Shown here in pieces: positions 3,664-51,036 of a stretch of 64,000 nt of DNA. The DNA comes from Phycisphaerae bacterium RAS1 (lineage in GTDB: Bacteria > Planctomycetota > Phycisphaerae > UBA1845 > Fen-1342), in the NCBI GenBank assembly GCA_007859745.1, contig SMLU01000002.1, positions 240,942 to 304,941 on the forward strand, read 5' to 3'. The stretch's first letter is position 1. The number at the start of each line of letters is the position of its first letter. Both the position numbers and the translations under genes were made by a program. The notes under the pieces are model-generated. The model was not told the DNA's origin. It was given only the letters and a program-made list of their open reading frames with translations, and ran no database searches.

Positions 3664-5637
3664 CTATCTTGCGGCCAGCAGCGCGACAAACGCGTTAATG
3701 TCCAGAACATTCACCGCGCGGTCTCCATTCAAATCCGCCAGTTCCCGATCGCACAGCGGATATTGCACGGCGTACCCCGCGGGATCGGACAGCGCCGTTA
3801 CGAACGGGGCTGCATCCATCAGGTCGACCGAGAAGTCGCAGTTCAGATCGCCGCGGGCCGGGCCGTATTCCCAGGTATCGGCTCTCGATGCGCCGAGGGC
3901 ATCCTCCCCGCCGAACAAGATCACCCGCCGGCGATGTGAATCGAAGGTCATGGCGTGCTCGTATCGGCCCGATGGCCCGTTCGCTGGGCTGCGCGTCCAG
4001 GCCCCGACGCCTTTTTCCCAGGTTTCGCTGCTCCAGGCGCCGTCGTACCCCCCAAAGAGCACGAGCCGCTGCCGCACCGAATCATAGACCATGGCGGGTT
4101 CGACGCGCGGGCTCGGGCCGGCCGAGGATCGCCGGAACCAGCTCGCCCCGTCCCACTCCCACGTCTCATGATCGAAGTAGCCATCCCAGCCGCCGAAGAG
4201 CACGACGCGCTGTGAGACGCTGCTGTACGCCATGCAGTGCTGCCAGCGCGGATCGGGGCCGCTGGTGGCGCGCACTTCCCAGGACGCGCCATCCCACTCC
4301 CATGTGTCGCCGAGCAGCGCTCCGGCCGCCAGGCCGCCGAAGAGCACCGTGCGGCCGCGAGCGGCGTCGTAGGCCAACGCCGGGTTGGTGCGGGCGCCCG
4401 GTCCGGTGTTCGCGGCCAGCATCCAGGATTCACCGTCCCACTCCCACGTCTCGGCGCCACCGGCTCCGCTGCCGCCAAACAGGACTGTCCGGCCGCGAGC
4501 TGAATCGTAGGTCATGGCGTGGGATACCCGAGTTCCCGGGCCGGCGTTCGCGATGAGCATCCAGCGCGACCCGTCGTACTCCCACGTCTCGGTGCTTCTT
4601 TCACCACCAACACCGCCGTAGAGTACGACGCGCTGGCGGAGCGCGTCATACGTCATAGCATGGCCGTTGCGCGCTTGCGGCGCACCGGCGCGGACCGTCC
4701 AGGAGCTTCCATCCCACTCCCAGAGGTCGCCTTCGGCGCCGATGTTCCAGCCCCCAAACAGCGCGACGCGATGCCGCGCGCCGTCGTAGACCAGTTTCGC
4801 CCCGGTGCGTGCGCTGGGGCCGTCGGTGGCCCGTAGTGACCAGGATTCTCCGTCCCATTCCCACGTATCACCAACGAATTCATCGTCGCTTCGCCCACCG
4901 AATAGCACGACTCGGCCACGGGCCGGGTCGCCGGCCATCTCGTGCGCATAGCGCGGACTGGGACCTTTGACATCGCGCAGTGTCCATTCAACTCCGTCCC
5001 ACTCCCACGTGTCGCCGGCTGGTCGCCCACCGGGCGTCTGCTCTTCGCCGCCGAACAATACCACGCGCTTCCGGGCGCTGTCGTAGGCGACGGCGTGCCC
5101 GATACGACGGGTCGGACCGGAGTCGGAGAGCAACTCCCATTGGGCCCCATCCCACGACCAGGTTGTTCCGCTCCAGGTCCCGTACGCGAAGCCGCCAACG
5201 AGCAGGACATGCCGCCGATCGGCGTCGTAGACCAACTCAAAATCGTGCGAGACGGTCGGCCCGGCGGTCGAAACCAGCGTCCAGGATTCTCCGTCCCATT
5301 CCCACGTCTCACCACTGAGGTCGTCGCCGCGCCCGCGAACCAGGACGATTCGATTTCGGATCGGATCCTCGGCCATTTCGACGATGCCTTGGGCATCCGG
5401 ACCCATTCGCGTGCGCAATCCCCACGAAATTCCGCTCCATTCCCAGGTTTCGCTTTGGAGTTGCGGGGAGTTGCCGCCGAACATGACGAGGCGCAGGCGG
5501 GCGCTGTCGAAAGCCATGGCGTGGCCCACACGCGGCGCGGGACAAGCCAGGCGCCATTCCTGAGCGGTGCAGCGGGGCGCGAGCGTTGCGAGGGCGATGG
5601 CTGCGAAAACGGATCGTGCCAAGCGTGCGTCGTGCAT
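3664..5637 (-). CDS. Secreted 12-repeat kelch-type protein with dockerin-like tail
   Basis: A 657-residue exported protein. The ATG at 5637 gives a signal peptide (ARLARSVFAAIALATLA, then cleavage near CTAQ). Residues of about 25-580 hold twelve kelch-like units of 44-50 residues, each with a YDSxRxRVVLFGG strand and an ETWEWDGxxW strand, so two six-bladed propellers are likely. The C-terminal 65 residues (GDLNCDFSVDLMD ... NGDRAVNVLDINAFVALL) are a divergent version of the two-loop calcium-binding tail shared by other exported proteins here. The binding partner is unknown. The frame extends upstream to 5787, but that part overlaps intergenic palindromes and lacks export features. Confidence 0.8.
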   Translation of the reverse strand: MHDARLARSVFAAIALATLAPRCTAQEWRLACPAPRVGHAMAFDSARLRLVMFGGNSPQLQSETWEWSGISWGLRTRMGPDAQGIVEMAEDPIRNRIVLVRGRGDDLSGETWEWDGESWTLVSTAGPTVSHDFELVYDADRRHVLLVGGFAYGTWSGTTWSWDGAQWELLSDSGPTRRIGHAVAYDSARKRVVLFGGEEQTPGGRPAGDTWEWDGVEWTLRDVKGPSPRYAHEMAGDPARGRVVLFGGRSDDEFVGDTWEWDGESWSLRATDGPSARTGAKLVYDGARHRVALFGGWNIGAEGDLWEWDGSSWTVRAGAPQARNGHAMTYDALRQRVVLYGGVGGERSTETWEYDGSRWMLIANAGPGTRVSHAMTYDSARGRTVLFGGSGAGGAETWEWDGESWMLAANTGPGARTNPALAYDAARGRTVLFGGLAAGALLGDTWEWDGASWEVRATSGPDPRWQHCMAYSSVSQRVVLFGGWDGYFDHETWEWDGASWFRRSSAGPSPRVEPAMVYDSVRQRLVLFGGYDGAWSSETWEKGVGAWTRSPANGPSGRYEHAMTFDSHRRRVILFGGEDALGASRADTWEYGPARGDLNCDFSVDLMDAAPFVTALSDPAGYAVQYPLCDRELADLNGDRAVNVLDINAFVALLAAR

Positions 5638-8642: not shown

Positions 8643-8871
8643 CCTGATCGCTCCCATGGCTCTGCCTGTCCGGTGCATCCGTAACGGCGGGTCGGCCGAC
8701 TCCGGCCGCTTCGCGCGCGGCGATGCAACGCCGCGCTCATCCTGTTCCGCCTTCGGACGGGGTTCTCCGAACCCGTGCCAGCGCCATCCGGCGCTGCTCA
8801 CCGGCGACGCGATTCGGCCAAGCCATCGAGCCGATCGCGTCCCGACATTCGTGCCTTCACCGCTCCATGTA

Positions 8872-9028
8872 GCCCGGCCGCCCTCGGCCGGACTGCCCAT
8901 CTATCTTGCCCGGCCGCCCTCGGCCGGACTGCCCATCTATCTTGCCCGGCCGCCCTCGGCCGGACTGTCCATCCTTCTCGCCCGGCCGGGGGCGGCCGGG
9001 CTACATCGTCCGACTCGGAGGTCGGACG
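8872..9028. repeat. Three 36-bp tandem repeats plus palindromes between flgL and fliW
   Basis: Three direct copies of a 36-bp unit start at 8872, 8908 and 8944. Each has the palindrome GCCCGGCCGCCCTCGGCCGG followed by a 16-bp tail such as ACTGCCCATCTATCTT. The first two are identical and the third has four changes. A fourth half-copy with the inverted core follows at 8980-9004, then a GACTCGGAGGTCGGAC element that runs into the flgL stop. The remainder of 8643-8871 shows no feature. Confidence 0.85.
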
Positions 9029-15016: not shown

Positions 15017-15913
15017 CTACTCCAGCCTCAGGAAATCCGTCAGCCGCTTCAGCCAGCCGCGGCGGGCCGCGTCGCGCGCGGCCCCGGCGTGCTGCACATC
15101 CACGATCAACTCGGCCACCTGCGTGCTGAGAACCGTGTTCTGCGGGGTGAGATCGTCGGTGCGGCAGACGCCGGTAAGCGTGTAGACCTGCTCGTCCTCG
15201 TCCTGCTTGATCGTCTTTTTGGCTTCAAGCACCAGGTTGCCGTTGGGCTTCACGTCAATCACCTTGGCTGTGATGCGCGTGGTCAGCTCATCGCGGCGGT
15301 CGACCCGCCCGCGGCCCTGGTACTGGTCCTGCAGCTTGAACTCCACCCCCGGCGCGCCGTTCGGAAAATCCTGCGGGATCAGGTGGTCTTCCGGGTTCAG
15401 CCGGAACCACTTGCCCAGCTCGCTGCCCACCTGCCACTGCTTGTTCTGCCGCAGGTTCGAATCGCTGATCGCCAGCTTGGTCTCGCGAATAATGATCGTG
15501 ATCAGGTCATTGACCTGAATGACCTGCGGCTTGGGCGGCTCAACCGCGATCGGCGAGAACGCCAGCAGCGCCGGATTGGTGCTTTGCGCTTCAGGATCGA
15601 CACGCGGCGGCGGCGCAGCCCGCAGCCCGGGCATGGCAGCGTTCTTGTTCAAGCCCCCGCCGCTACTCCGCGCCGGTTGCGACGCCGCTGGCGGCATCGA
15701 CGGGGCCCGGCCGGAGCGGAAGAGCGAATTGCTCTGGGCTGATGCGGTCACGGCGCCGAGCAGAACAAATGCCGCCGTCAGCCGGAGCGACAGTGAATTG
15801 TGGGTGGGACCGGCGTCTCGCCGGTCCCCTCGCCCCGCGCGGACGGGCGAGACGCCCGTCCCACCCGCCGAAATCGCCTCGCACCGCGCCATCGCTTGAC
15901 ATCTCGACTTCAT
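15017..15913 (-). CDS. flgH: Flagellar L-ring protein with palindrome-encoded N-terminal segment
   Basis: A 298-residue outer-membrane ring protein. The mature part includes LITIIIRETKLAISDSN, RITAKVIDVKPNGNLVLEA and TDDLTPQNTVLSTQVAELIV, all FlgH motifs. The ATG at 15913 has GGAGG 6 bases upstream and overlaps the end of flgA, so this start is well supported. Between it and the signal sequence (LRLTAAFVLLGAVTASAQ) lie about 30 extra residues, GGTGVSPVRAGRGDRRDAG, encoded by a palindromic element. No ATG, GTG or TTG start exists between the repeat and the hydrophobic core. A lipobox cysteine is not evident. Confidence 0.9.
   Translation of the reverse strand: MKSRCQAMARCEAISAGGTGVSPVRAGRGDRRDAGPTHNSLSLRLTAAFVLLGAVTASAQSNSLFRSGRAPSMPPAASQPARSSGGGLNKNAAMPGLRAAPPPRVDPEAQSTNPALLAFSPIAVEPPKPQVIQVNDLITIIIRETKLAISDSNLRQNKQWQVGSELGKWFRLNPEDHLIPQDFPNGAPGVEFKLQDQYQGRGRVDRRDELTTRITAKVIDVKPNGNLVLEAKKTIKQDEDEQVYTLTGVCRTDDLTPQNTVLSTQVAELIVDVQHAGAARDAARRGWLKRLTDFLRLE
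15801..15867. repeat. GGGACGGGCGTCTCGCCCGT-type palindrome inside flgH
   Basis: Arms TGGGTGGGACCGGCGTCTCG and CGAGACGCCCGTCCCACCC surround a short GC-rich centre. Relatives occur at 18003-18064, 24536-24631 and 50955-51036, all between genes. This copy is translated as part of the FlgH N-terminus. Confidence 0.88.
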
Positions 15914-15914
15914 T

Positions 15915-16988
15915 TCAATCCTCCTCAACCCGCACGGTTCCCAGCCCCGTCACCACGCCGCGCAGTTCGCGCCACTGCTTGCGGCCTTCGCCCACGCGGA
16001 CGCGGACGGTTTCGCCGTAGCCGGCCGTGTCGAGCGCCGTGCCGGCCATCCGTACGTTGACGCTGCCGGCGGCCCCCAGGACCGTGACCGGCCGCGAGCG
16101 CTCGACCAGCGGCGTCGATTTCAGATCCACGGCCTTCACCATTTCCCCGGCCTGGAGAAACCGCTTGAGCTGCTGGCCGACGACCTGCTCGACCGTCGCC
16201 AGGCCGATTTCTTTTTCGGATTCGAAGGAGCGGCTTTCGACGCCGACGTCTTCGCGTTTCACAAATGAGCCGATCGCCAGCGGCTTGCGGGCCACGATCA
16301 CGCTGCGCGTGAGCTGCACACGGGCAAAAACGCTGACCGTCCGCTGCGTCTGACCATCGCGACGAATCGTCACGCGAAACTCACGCAAACCGAGCTTCTC
16401 GCGGCCGGCGGGACGCACGAGGAAATCCCACGGCGGCGACGTGAGCCCCAGAAAATCCCGCCCGGCGGCCTCGAACGCGACTTCAGGCGTTCCGCCGAGC
16501 GACTTCAGCTCGGCGGCGACGCTGAGCCGAATCGCGTCCGCCAGGGTCTGCGAGCGAATGATGGCGGCGGGATCGTCGGTTCGCAGGCTCGAAGCATCCG
16601 AATCGGGCGACGGCGCCGGCGACGATTCAAGTTGAACGCGACACGTCGCCGCGCCGCTTAGCAGAACGAACGAGAGGTTGGCGCCCGCCTGGTGAAGCTG
16701 CCGCAGGACATCTTCATGATCGAGCGTAAACGCGGCGGGCGTTGTATCCAGCTTGATAGGCTTCTCGGCGAGCGCGGCGAGCTTCTCGTCCGCCCCCGCG
16801 AAATCGACCACGTCGCCCAATCGAACGGTGGCGCCGTGCACGACCGCGGTCGGTTTGAGCTTCAACCGGGAAACGGGCGCATCAGCGACCGCGGGAACGA
16901 CGATCGTCAGAATTACGATCAGCGACCACGTCGCGGGTTCGCGGAGCATTTCCCATTTTCCATTTTTGATTTTTGATTTCTTGTTCAT
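15915..16988 (-). CDS. flgA: Flagellar basal-body P-ring formation protein
   Basis: A 357-residue periplasmic chaperone for P-ring assembly. The C-terminal SAF-like region shows VIVARKPLAIGSFVKREDV, QVVGQQLKRFLQAGEMVKA, VLGAAGSVNVRMAGTALD and the final RGVVTGLGTVRVEED. The export segment is TWSLIVILTIVVPAVADA. The ATG at 16988 follows GGAG with a suitable spacer; an ATG 13 codons later is possible. The stretch between them (KKSKIKNGKWEM) comes from A-rich low-complexity DNA unlike the rest of the gene. The N-terminal domain is longer than in E. coli FlgA. Confidence 0.88.
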   Translation of the reverse strand: MNKKSKIKNGKWEMLREPATWSLIVILTIVVPAVADAPVSRLKLKPTAVVHGATVRLGDVVDFAGADEKLAALAEKPIKLDTTPAAFTLDHEDVLRQLHQAGANLSFVLLSGAATCRVQLESSPAPSPDSDASSLRTDDPAAIIRSQTLADAIRLSVAAELKSLGGTPEVAFEAAGRDFLGLTSPPWDFLVRPAGREKLGLREFRVTIRRDGQTQRTVSVFARVQLTRSVIVARKPLAIGSFVKREDVGVESRSFESEKEIGLATVEQVVGQQLKRFLQAGEMVKAVDLKSTPLVERSRPVTVLGAAGSVNVRMAGTALDTAGYGETVRVRVGEGRKQWRELRGVVTGLGTVRVEED

Positions 16989-16999
16989 CGCTCGCTCCG

Positions 17000-17178
17000 T
17001 CGCTCCGCCGTCGGACGCCGAGGTCCGACCATGTAGCCCGGCCGCCCTCGGCCGGTCCATTCAGTCCGCGTTGGGTGGGCACTGCCCACCATCCGCCGTC
17101 GGCCACAGAGGGCCGACGCTACGGCCGACTCGGAGGTCGGCCGCTACAGCCCGGCCGGGGGCGGCCGGGCTACATCGC
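17000..17178. repeat. Repeat cluster between flgG and flgA
   Basis: The 192-bp gap 16989-17180 is almost all repeat: GTCGGACGCCGAGGTCCGAC (about 17010-17029), GCCCGGCCGCCCTCGGCCGG (17036-17055), GGGTGGGCACTGCCCACC (17074-17091), GGCCACAGAGGGCC, GCCGACTCGGAGGTCGGC (about 17125-17142) and CCGGCCGGGGGCGGCCGGGC (17151-17170). The last runs up to the flgG stop. Confidence 0.8.
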
Positions 17179-18002: not shown

Positions 18003-18064
18003 TGGGTGGCACGGGCGTCTCGCCCGTGCAGACCGCGGGACGGGCGAGACGCCCGTCCCACCCA
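18003..18064. repeat. GGGACGGGCGTCTCGCCCGT-type palindrome between flgF and flgG
   Basis: Arms TGGGTGGCACGGGCGTCTCG and GGGACGGGCGAGACGCCCGT, with CCCACCC at the end, occupy most of the 90-bp gap between the flgF stop and the flgG start. It is the intergenic counterpart of the copy inside flgH. Confidence 0.85.
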
Positions 18065-18071
18065 AACCGCG

Positions 18072-23012: not shown

Positions 23013-23160
23013 TCCGCCGTCGAGAAGAAACCAGTTGTCGCCAAATCCGTTCAGGAGATCTCACTTTAATGCTACAACACCGCTTTCTTCAGCCCTGGAA
23101 GGGCGAAAGAGTATAGCCCCGGGCGCGAGCCCGGGGGTGTCTGAGTAGCGATGTAGTATT

Positions 23161-24452: not shown

Positions 24453-24535
24453 GTTCAGTGGGCGATTATTACCCGGGATGCGGGTTCCGGATAGGCGGCG
24501 GCGCTGGGACTACAACGTTGCTTCCTTCGTAATTC

Positions 24536-24631
24536 GGGTGGGACGGGCGTCTCGCCCGTCCCTACGGTTCGACGAACGGGCAAGCTGCCCGTTTCGATGC
24601 GGCCGGGACGGGCGAGACGCCCATCCCACCC
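24536..24631. repeat. Compound palindrome between oleA and plsC
   Basis: GGGTGGGACGGGCGTCTCGC at one end and GGGACGGGCGAGACGCCCAT with CCCACCC at the other enclose a second small palindrome, AACGGGCAAGCTGCCCGTT (24581-24599). It follows the plsC stop directly. Confidence 0.85.
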
Positions 24632-31928: not shown

Positions 31929-32090
31929 GGAGGGCCGGCGCTACGGCACGGGTCGAAGACCCGTGCCACACTCACCGGTTGGAAACCGGTGCCACACAGA
32001 AACCGGTGCCACACGGAAACCGGTGCCACACGGAAACCGGTGCAACACAGAATCACCGGTTGGAAACCGGTGCCACAAATGCAGGTTCGT
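31918..32090. repeat. GGCACCGGTTTCCAACCGGTG-type repeat array downstream of kbl
   Basis: A GTCGGCCACGGAGGGCCGGC element, a CACGGGTCGAAGACCCGTG palindrome and then six short tandem half-units of the type GAAACCGGTGCCACAC occupy almost the whole interval. A CACCGGTTGGAAACCGGTG palindrome stands at each end of the array. The same family appears at 7975-8035. Confidence 0.8.
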
Positions 32091-33296: not shown

Positions 33297-33390
33297 GTGG
33301 CCTCCTTTGCGACTCTCCGCGCGAGACGTCGACCCGCCGCTGGGCGCAGCGGGTTCGGACAAGCGCCGGCGGATGCGGGGAGTATATCGT

Positions 33391-33453
33391 TCAGAGCCGC
33401 AACCGTGAGGGAGCGGCGGCCTAAGAACCGCTTGCTTACGCGCGCGGCTCGGA
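33391..33453. repeat. GAGCCGCGACCGTGA-family palindrome upstream of kbl
   Basis: AGAGCCGCAACCGTGAGGGA and CGCGCGGCTCGGAT form imperfect arms around AAGAACCGCTTGCTTACG. The internal CCGCTTGCTTACGCGCG is also found in the copy near 440. It lies between the divergent kbl and YkgJ-type genes. Confidence 0.75.
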
Positions 33454-33498
33454 TTGCCGAAGGAATCTCCGGCCCGTTCCCTGCGCGGAGACCGCCGT

Positions 33499-35530: not shown

Positions 35531-35596
35531 TTCCGAGCCGCGACCGTGAGGGAGCGGTTCTTACGCCGGCGCTCCCTCACGGTCGCGGCTCGGATA
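35531..35596. repeat. 24-bp perfect inverted repeat, GAGCCGCGACCGTGA family
   Basis: CCGAGCCGCGACCGTGAGGG (arm 35533-35556) is repeated exactly in inverse at 35570-35593 across a 13-base loop. It is the cleanest copy of the family also found at 315-460 and 33391-33453, and lies just after the 3' end of the zinc-ribbon membrane protein gene. Confidence 0.92.
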
Positions 35597-36667: not shown

Positions 36668-36870
36668 CGACGGGTGGCACGGACAAGCGGTACTCCGCTT
36701 GTCCGTGTTATGCCCAAGAACAAGAACCCACGTCCAGCATCAGAATCCACACGCCCGACGGCGGGGCGGCGCGCGGTACAAGTCGCGCGGCGAACAGACG
36801 GACAAGCGGAGTACCACTTGTCCGTGCCGCCCGCCGATGCCCCGGCCGGGGGCGGCCGGGCTACACGTAC
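36668..36870. repeat. Two ACAAGCGG-type palindromes and a GGCCGG element before the rne stop
   Basis: Palindromes GGACAAGCGGTACTCCGCTT (with GTCC) at about 36679-36703 and GGACAAGCGGAGTACCACTT (with GTCC) at about 36800-36823 flank about 90 bp without features. CCCCGGCCGGGGGCGGCCGG follows at 36840-36859 and touches the RNase gene stop. Confidence 0.75.
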
Positions 36871-50954: not shown

Positions 50955-51036
50955 TGGGTGGGACGGGCGTCAGGGTGGGACGGGCGTCTCGCCCGTCCCC
51001 GTTGTCTCTGGAACGGGCACGATGCCCGTTCCACCC
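50955..51036. repeat. GGGACGGGCGTCTCGCCCGT-type compound palindrome
   Basis: A partial copy, GGGTGGGACGGGCGTCA, is followed by a complete GGGTGGGACGGGCGTCTCGC element and a nested GAACGGGCACGATGCCCGTT palindrome. It lies after the second DUF3857 gene. The rest of the 292-bp gap to the GH13 gene is its leader. Confidence 0.85.

Follow-up and report, generated by a model that had tools for sequence, protein, structure and literature searches.

The flgH gene of Phycisphaerae bacterium RAS1 appears to be read through a palindrome that lies between its start codon and the core of its signal peptide, which raises the question of what kind of element this is and how the gene accommodates it. flgH (15017-15913, minus strand; Pfam FlgH, 2.3e-30) encodes the L-ring protein and sits between flgA and flgI in the window, the whole 64-kb stretch of DNA that was analysed. 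The upstream gene, flgA, occupies 15915-17060 on the same strand (Pfam ChapFlgA). A sequence-only reading of the window had placed the start of flgH at 15913 behind a strong GGAGG. This was borne out, with the ATG (15913-15911, minus strand) lying one base past the flgA stop codon (15917-15915) and the GGAGG Shine-Dalgarno sequence at 15920-15924 (minus strand), within the 3' end of flgA.

A REP doublet in the predicted leader of FlgH

Codons 1-16 of flgH encode MKSRCQAMARCEAISA, codons 17-37 correspond to the element, and the residues HNS then lead into the hydrophobic signal-peptide core LSLRLTAAFVLLGAVTASAQ (15734-15793, minus strand), which corresponds to the AQ(S/N)NSL region of relatives. 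Two in-frame ATG codons, at 15913 and 15892, lie 5' of the element. The sequence-only reading had proposed that the palindrome is translated in frame ahead of the core, with no alternative start in between; the frame is indeed open across 15803-15865, where the element would be translated, and no in-frame ATG, GTG or TTG was found between the element and the core. The length it gave, 67 bp, needs correcting to 63 bp, or 21 codons. Our hexamer-based gene caller placed the flgH start downstream of the ATG at 15913 because the N-terminal third of the gene scores low.

The distance from the start to the cleavage region is 60 residues, or 39 if the 21 element codons are subtracted. At 29 FlgH loci from the same GTDB family and order as RAS1, the likely starts lie about 15-37 residues ahead of the corresponding point. 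The sequence-only reading had called for a comparison with close relatives; at this family and order distance, the element is absent from all 29 loci, none of which has a comparable insert ahead of the AQ(S/N)NSL-like region. No close relative emerged when contigs were searched with FlgH. In this lineage the protein has an SPI-type AQ(S/N)NSL cleavage region without a lipobox cysteine (window 15734-15793), although FlgH is typically a lipoprotein.

The element (15803-15865, minus strand) encodes GGTGVSPVRAGRGDRRDAGPT in frame and consists of two head-to-head REP units. Unit 1, GGTGGGACGGGCGTCTCGCCCGTCC (15841-15865, minus strand), is identical to the family consensus and reads GGTGVSPV, while unit 2, GGTGGGACCGGCGTCTCGCCGGTCC (15803-15827, plus strand), carries a compensated change across both arms. 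Unit 1 forms a hairpin of GTGG followed by GACGGGCG-TCT-CGCCCGTC, and unit 2 one of GTGG followed by GACCGGCG-TCT-CGCCGGTC, so that each has an 8-bp stem, a TCT loop and a GTGG foot pointing outward. Folding likewise predicts a strong hairpin here. Canonical REPs carry GTAG or GTGG 0-2 nt 5' of a 7-20 bp stem with a loop of 2-5 nt (PMC6006769), a description that fits both units, and the inverted pair has the arrangement of a REPIN. The genome also contains a Y1/HUH transposase gene flanked by repeats of the same family. Judged by its sequence, the flgH element is a canonical GTGG-foot REP doublet (REPIN) of the REP/RAYT system. The sole Rfam match over the whole window is an Acido-Lenti-1 RNA (23091-23136, minus strand), indicating that the element belongs to no known RNA family.

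Distribution of the repeat family

The RAS1 genome contains 130 exact occurrences of the 26-mer GGTGGGACGGGCGTCTCGCCCGTCCC and none of the reversed pattern, and the 26-mer is absent from 26 other genomes of the GTDB family and 391 others of the phylum. Element and frame statistics were gathered over 2.44 Mb of the 5.5 Mb genome, with genes called by our own simple hexamer-based caller. This portion yielded 239 strong unit matches (0 for the reversed sequence), making up at least 142 flgH-family elements, 73 of which have the commonest arrangement, '+-'. Although 83% of the sequence is coding, 124 of the 142 elements lie outside called genes. Their flanking genes are in tandem (77), convergent (32) or divergent (12) orientation.

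Three further sites in the window, named earlier as 18003, 24536 and 50955, were correctly assigned to the same family: an intergenic REPIN at 18003-18066, intergenic copies at 24535-24630 and an intergenic copy at 50973-51001. A separate array of ~141-nt repeats lies at window positions 3900-5540, probably within the gene for a repetitive protein.

In-gene copies and their reading frame

Eighteen flgH-family elements of the 2.44 Mb lie inside called genes, and 16 of these share one frame, which reads GGTGVSPV in one orientation and TGETPVPP in the other; the flgH copy is in this frame too. All three reading frames of the REP are open. When each gene is counted once and one weak match is excluded, frame 0 is used in 13 of the 15 genes that contain a copy (binomial p = 3e-5 under equal chances), a figure that depends on our own caller and in which a few weak flanks are counted. 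The hosts include genes for ArgS, a class II (D/K/N) tRNA synthetase, QueG, Mfd, SppA, a prolyl oligopeptidase, a molybdopterin oxidoreductase and CcoNO, as well as the flagellar gene for FlhF. ArgS, the arginyl-tRNA synthetase, contains three consecutive REP units, and relatives of QueG align across both flanks with the REP stretch absent. Two in-gene copies are in frame 2, one of them in FlhF. The FlhF copy (contig C1, 904708-905826) reads RVGRASRPS ahead of the GTPase domain.

The shared frame could stem from codon usage, from bias in gene calling or from the choice of target site rather than from tolerance of the encoded peptide. Frame 0 of the REP scores highest in host hexamer usage, so gene calling slightly favours it; the hexamer differences, however, amount to a few units against gene scores above 80, and REPs flanking the RAYT nested in the IleRS of a different genome encode the variant GGVGVSPA, again in this frame. 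We therefore regard an origin of the frame preference in such biases as unlikely, while giving it some weight.

The in-gene copies also bear on the start of flgH itself. The palindrome might be an untranslated leader or RNA hairpin at the flgA-flgH junction, with translation beginning at a CTG at 15793 or 15781; REPs at predicted N-termini often prove extragenic through mis-called starts (PMC3733652), and the strong hairpin would suit such a role. This is quite improbable given that neither CTG is preceded by a Shine-Dalgarno sequence, that the GGAGG is well spaced from the ATG at 15913, and that the same REPs lie in frame deep within other conserved genes, where there is no ambiguity about the start.

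RAYT genes nested in core-enzyme genes

Searching the RAS1 genome for Y1_Tnp yielded 20 matches, of which three lie within open frames of more than 1200 aa. The RAYT matching the flgH REP family (contig C3, 131480-131965) is preceded by three REP units and followed by one inverted unit, and lies in frame and stop-free within a composite ileS (C3, 128474-132733) encoding an isoleucyl-tRNA synthetase of 1419 aa. Aligned with PDB entry 8c8v, IleRS residues 11-214 correspond to 9-212 and residues 448-964 to 219-661; the intervening insert of 233 residues, made up of REPs and RAYT, stands where 8c8v has a six-residue gap. A single further REP stretch, GTGGTGVSPV, is present near residue 1080 and is extra relative to 8c8v. 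Ahead of the RAYT in ileS there is no internal start accompanied by a ribosome site, so the transposase is probably produced solely as a segment of the enzyme.

Two other core enzymes are interrupted likewise: the valyl-tRNA synthetase encoded by valS (contig C4, 135734-140425), in which residue 689 aligns with 472 and 1041 with 474 of 1gax, and the glycine dehydrogenase GcvP (gcvP, contig C1, 698412-702089), in which residue 768 aligns with 754 and 1015 with 768 of 4lgl. A profile built from the nested RAYTs revealed a fourth nest, in purH (C1, 616551-619433), whose host halves are colinear with 3zzm. Every one of the four nested RAYTs is bordered on either side by a REP family of its own, and the window contains all four families. 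Besides the flgH family, copies of the family flanking the valS-nested RAYT lie at 398-462, 33390-33454 and 35531-35595, GTAG-foot copies of the gcvP family at 8864-9007, 17033-17176 and 36841-36865, and copies of the purH family at 31972-32077. Among the remaining Y1_Tnp matches, any HUH-bearing ORF found is an ordinary stand-alone RAYT or IS200-like gene. The IleRS and PurH composites (loci L204, 3474-7733, and L122, 16551-19433) also share an in-frame short repeat, GTGNREQGTE, which may represent a further translated repeat family.

Including those of RAS1, about 17 nests were found in 13 genomes, with G027 and Bin_19R counted as one record. In relatives, PurH is interrupted in G014, G007, G036, L258 and L260, LeuRS in G027 and G385, ValRS in G363, G379, Bin_19R and Bin_14R, IleRS in G016, at a site differing from that of RAS1, and AlaRS in G058 (residue 297 aligning with 307 and 529 with 311 of 4xem). 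At the loci examined, which were partly selected for long open frames, every RAYT that interrupts IleRS, ValRS, LeuRS, AlaRS, PurH or GcvP keeps the frame and is free of stops; the ORFs of stand-alone RAYTs mostly stop no more than 40 residues past the domain. Some sites recur with different occupants. The PurH site before the F(I/V)KH motif holds a type A RAYT in RAS1 and type B in five others, and the ValRS site between QW(F/Y).K. and F.P(E/D)RY holds type A in L228/L229 and type B in L261/L262. The HUH motif and catalytic tyrosine are invariant across nine nested RAYTs. The sole nest with a broken motif is that of L258, whose RAYT no longer has the first HUH histidine while its frame is kept, indicating that the frame can outlast activity. 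Structure prediction for the PurH-RAYT composite (four sequences) gave a pLDDT of 38 and no usable fold.

The nests could be ordinary insertions in decaying genes, or assembly or annotation fusions, devoid of biological meaning. A 2018 study that reported REPs inside tnpA_REP genes discarded unexpectedly long members of the transposase family as fusions or annotation errors (PMC6006769), and the broken motif in L258 would fit decay. Against this, all of the roughly 17 nests are in frame and stop-free, and they fall in core enzymes at recurring sites, some of them hit by two RAYT types; ileS and valS are each present in one copy in RAS1, the host halves are colinear with solved structures, and in the one-contig genome G351, too, a RAYT match lies within a long composite frame. 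Decay or artefact is thus a very improbable account of the nests.

Proposed explanation

We propose, with a probability of about 0.78, that the flgH insert is a RAYT-spread REPIN tolerated in the protein's leader, and that the same habit extends to whole RAYT genes nested in ileS, valS, gcvP and purH. A REPIN, a non-autonomous REP doublet copied by a RAYT (an HUH/Y1 transposase), would have landed between the flgH start and the signal core. There it would lengthen only the leader, which signal peptidase should remove on export, leaving the mature L-ring protein unchanged. Several properties probably helped the insert to stay: a length divisible by three, the absence of a stop in this frame, a first unit that encodes an unremarkable Gly/Thr/Pro-rich linker (GGTGVSPV), and an effect confined to the leader. 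More generally, genic insertions would persist only where the frame is kept and the peptide is tolerated, as in leaders and loops. RAYTs with their flanking REPs may obey the same rule, perhaps by entering REPs already present in loops, and the flgH copy would then exemplify this process on its smallest scale, with a repeat turned into part of a protein leader.

For the nests, this explanation would mean that each composite ORF yields one continuous protein and that the hosts remain functional enzymes with the transposase domain lodged in a surface loop. The nested RAYT part may still mobilise REPs, although the loss of the HUH histidine in L258 means that activity is not guaranteed. Nesting in an essential gene would presumably protect a RAYT from loss. 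How RAYTs can last for millions of years as single genes passed on vertically is an acknowledged puzzle, one that extends to the persistence of REPINs (PMC8049555). A transposase held in frame within an essential enzyme could explain such long persistence, and offers a testable answer for one lineage.

A broader reading, which we put forward tentatively and with somewhat less than even confidence, is that in this branch of the Planctomycetota the REP/RAYT systems have become protein-embedded replicators. The RAYTs would occupy, in frame, loops on the surface of core enzymes (IleRS, ValRS, LeuRS, AlaRS, PurH and GcvP) and, being made only there, could not be lost by ordinary deletion or frameshift. 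The REPs would have one frame encoding a harmless linker, allowing them to enter genes such as flgH, argS and queG without killing them. RAYTs may also use REPs already present in loops as landing pads, and the occurrence of different RAYT types at the same PurH and ValRS sites would then be explained.

Relation to known systems

The flgH element shares with the GTAG/GTGG superfamily of REP/REPIN elements and their RAYTs (TnpA_REP) the GTGG foot by an 8-bp stem, the 3-nt loop and the head-to-head doublets, and its family shares the copy number in the hundreds, the mostly tandem or convergent intergenic positions and the RAYT gene flanked by the same units. What differs in RAS1 is that the RAYT gene is nested in frame in ileS and that in-gene copies nearly always use one frame. 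In-frame intragenic REPs were described in 2013, including one in uvrA of the PVC bacterium Opitutus terrae (Di Nocera 2013, PMC3733652). Taken alone, the flgH element thus belongs to a known class: like the published examples it is an in-frame doublet, and some of those, in housekeeping genes, also lie near N-termini. The earlier cases are short repeats in genes, whereas RAS1 has whole RAYT genes in them.

The sequence-only reading had likened the element to Rickettsia palindromic elements. The likeness stands in that both are palindromes translated inside unrelated proteins, and flgH-family copies do lie in frame within protein-coding genes; it fails as a classification, the element being a GTGG-foot REP of a REP/RAYT system that differs from the Rickettsia elements in sequence and lineage. 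That it is a Rickettsia-type element, or an independent analogue unrelated to REP/RAYT, is hardly credible despite the shared in-frame translation within many kinds of gene, since its foot is GTGG rather than CGTC and RAS1 has a RAYT flanked by the flgH family, whereas CGTC repeats have no known dedicated transposase (PMC3733652).

Type-B nested RAYTs resemble TnpAY1 class 3 of Planctomycetes and Acidobacteria (TWLLTWTTYG... and the Y....Q motif), whose published members, unlike the nested ones, are stand-alone genes (PMC6006769). Inteins with homing endonucleases offer a further parallel, as selfish enzymes held in frame in essential genes at recurring conserved sites. The nested RAYT inserts differ in carrying an HUH transposase; a Pfam scan of eight composite ORFs found no intein domain in the inserts, and they bear no sign of splicing.

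Searching the open-access literature, we found no paper on RAYTs nested in frame in core enzymes. We regard such nests as a new aspect of the REP/RAYT system, and the flgH element as one of a known kind. Filters against 'fusions' and 'annotation errors' may have hidden the nests, and RAYT surveys and gene calls in the Planctomycetota appear due for redoing. The nests also make up a natural set of large domain insertions, apparently tolerated, in aminoacyl-tRNA synthetases and PurH.

RAYT-like domains also occur within non-core open frames of other Planctomycetota (L243, L244, L245, L247, L256 and L264), the hosts being DNA methylases (MmeI, Eco57I, N6_N4 and DUF1156), a DEAD helicase and an FAD/FMN oxidoreductase ORF. 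Further RAYT matches lie in frames of 1283-1614 aa at G351:C1:7397710, G258:C7:111411, G228:C3:288718 and G093:C5:45328, and on contigs C249 and C2 of G442.
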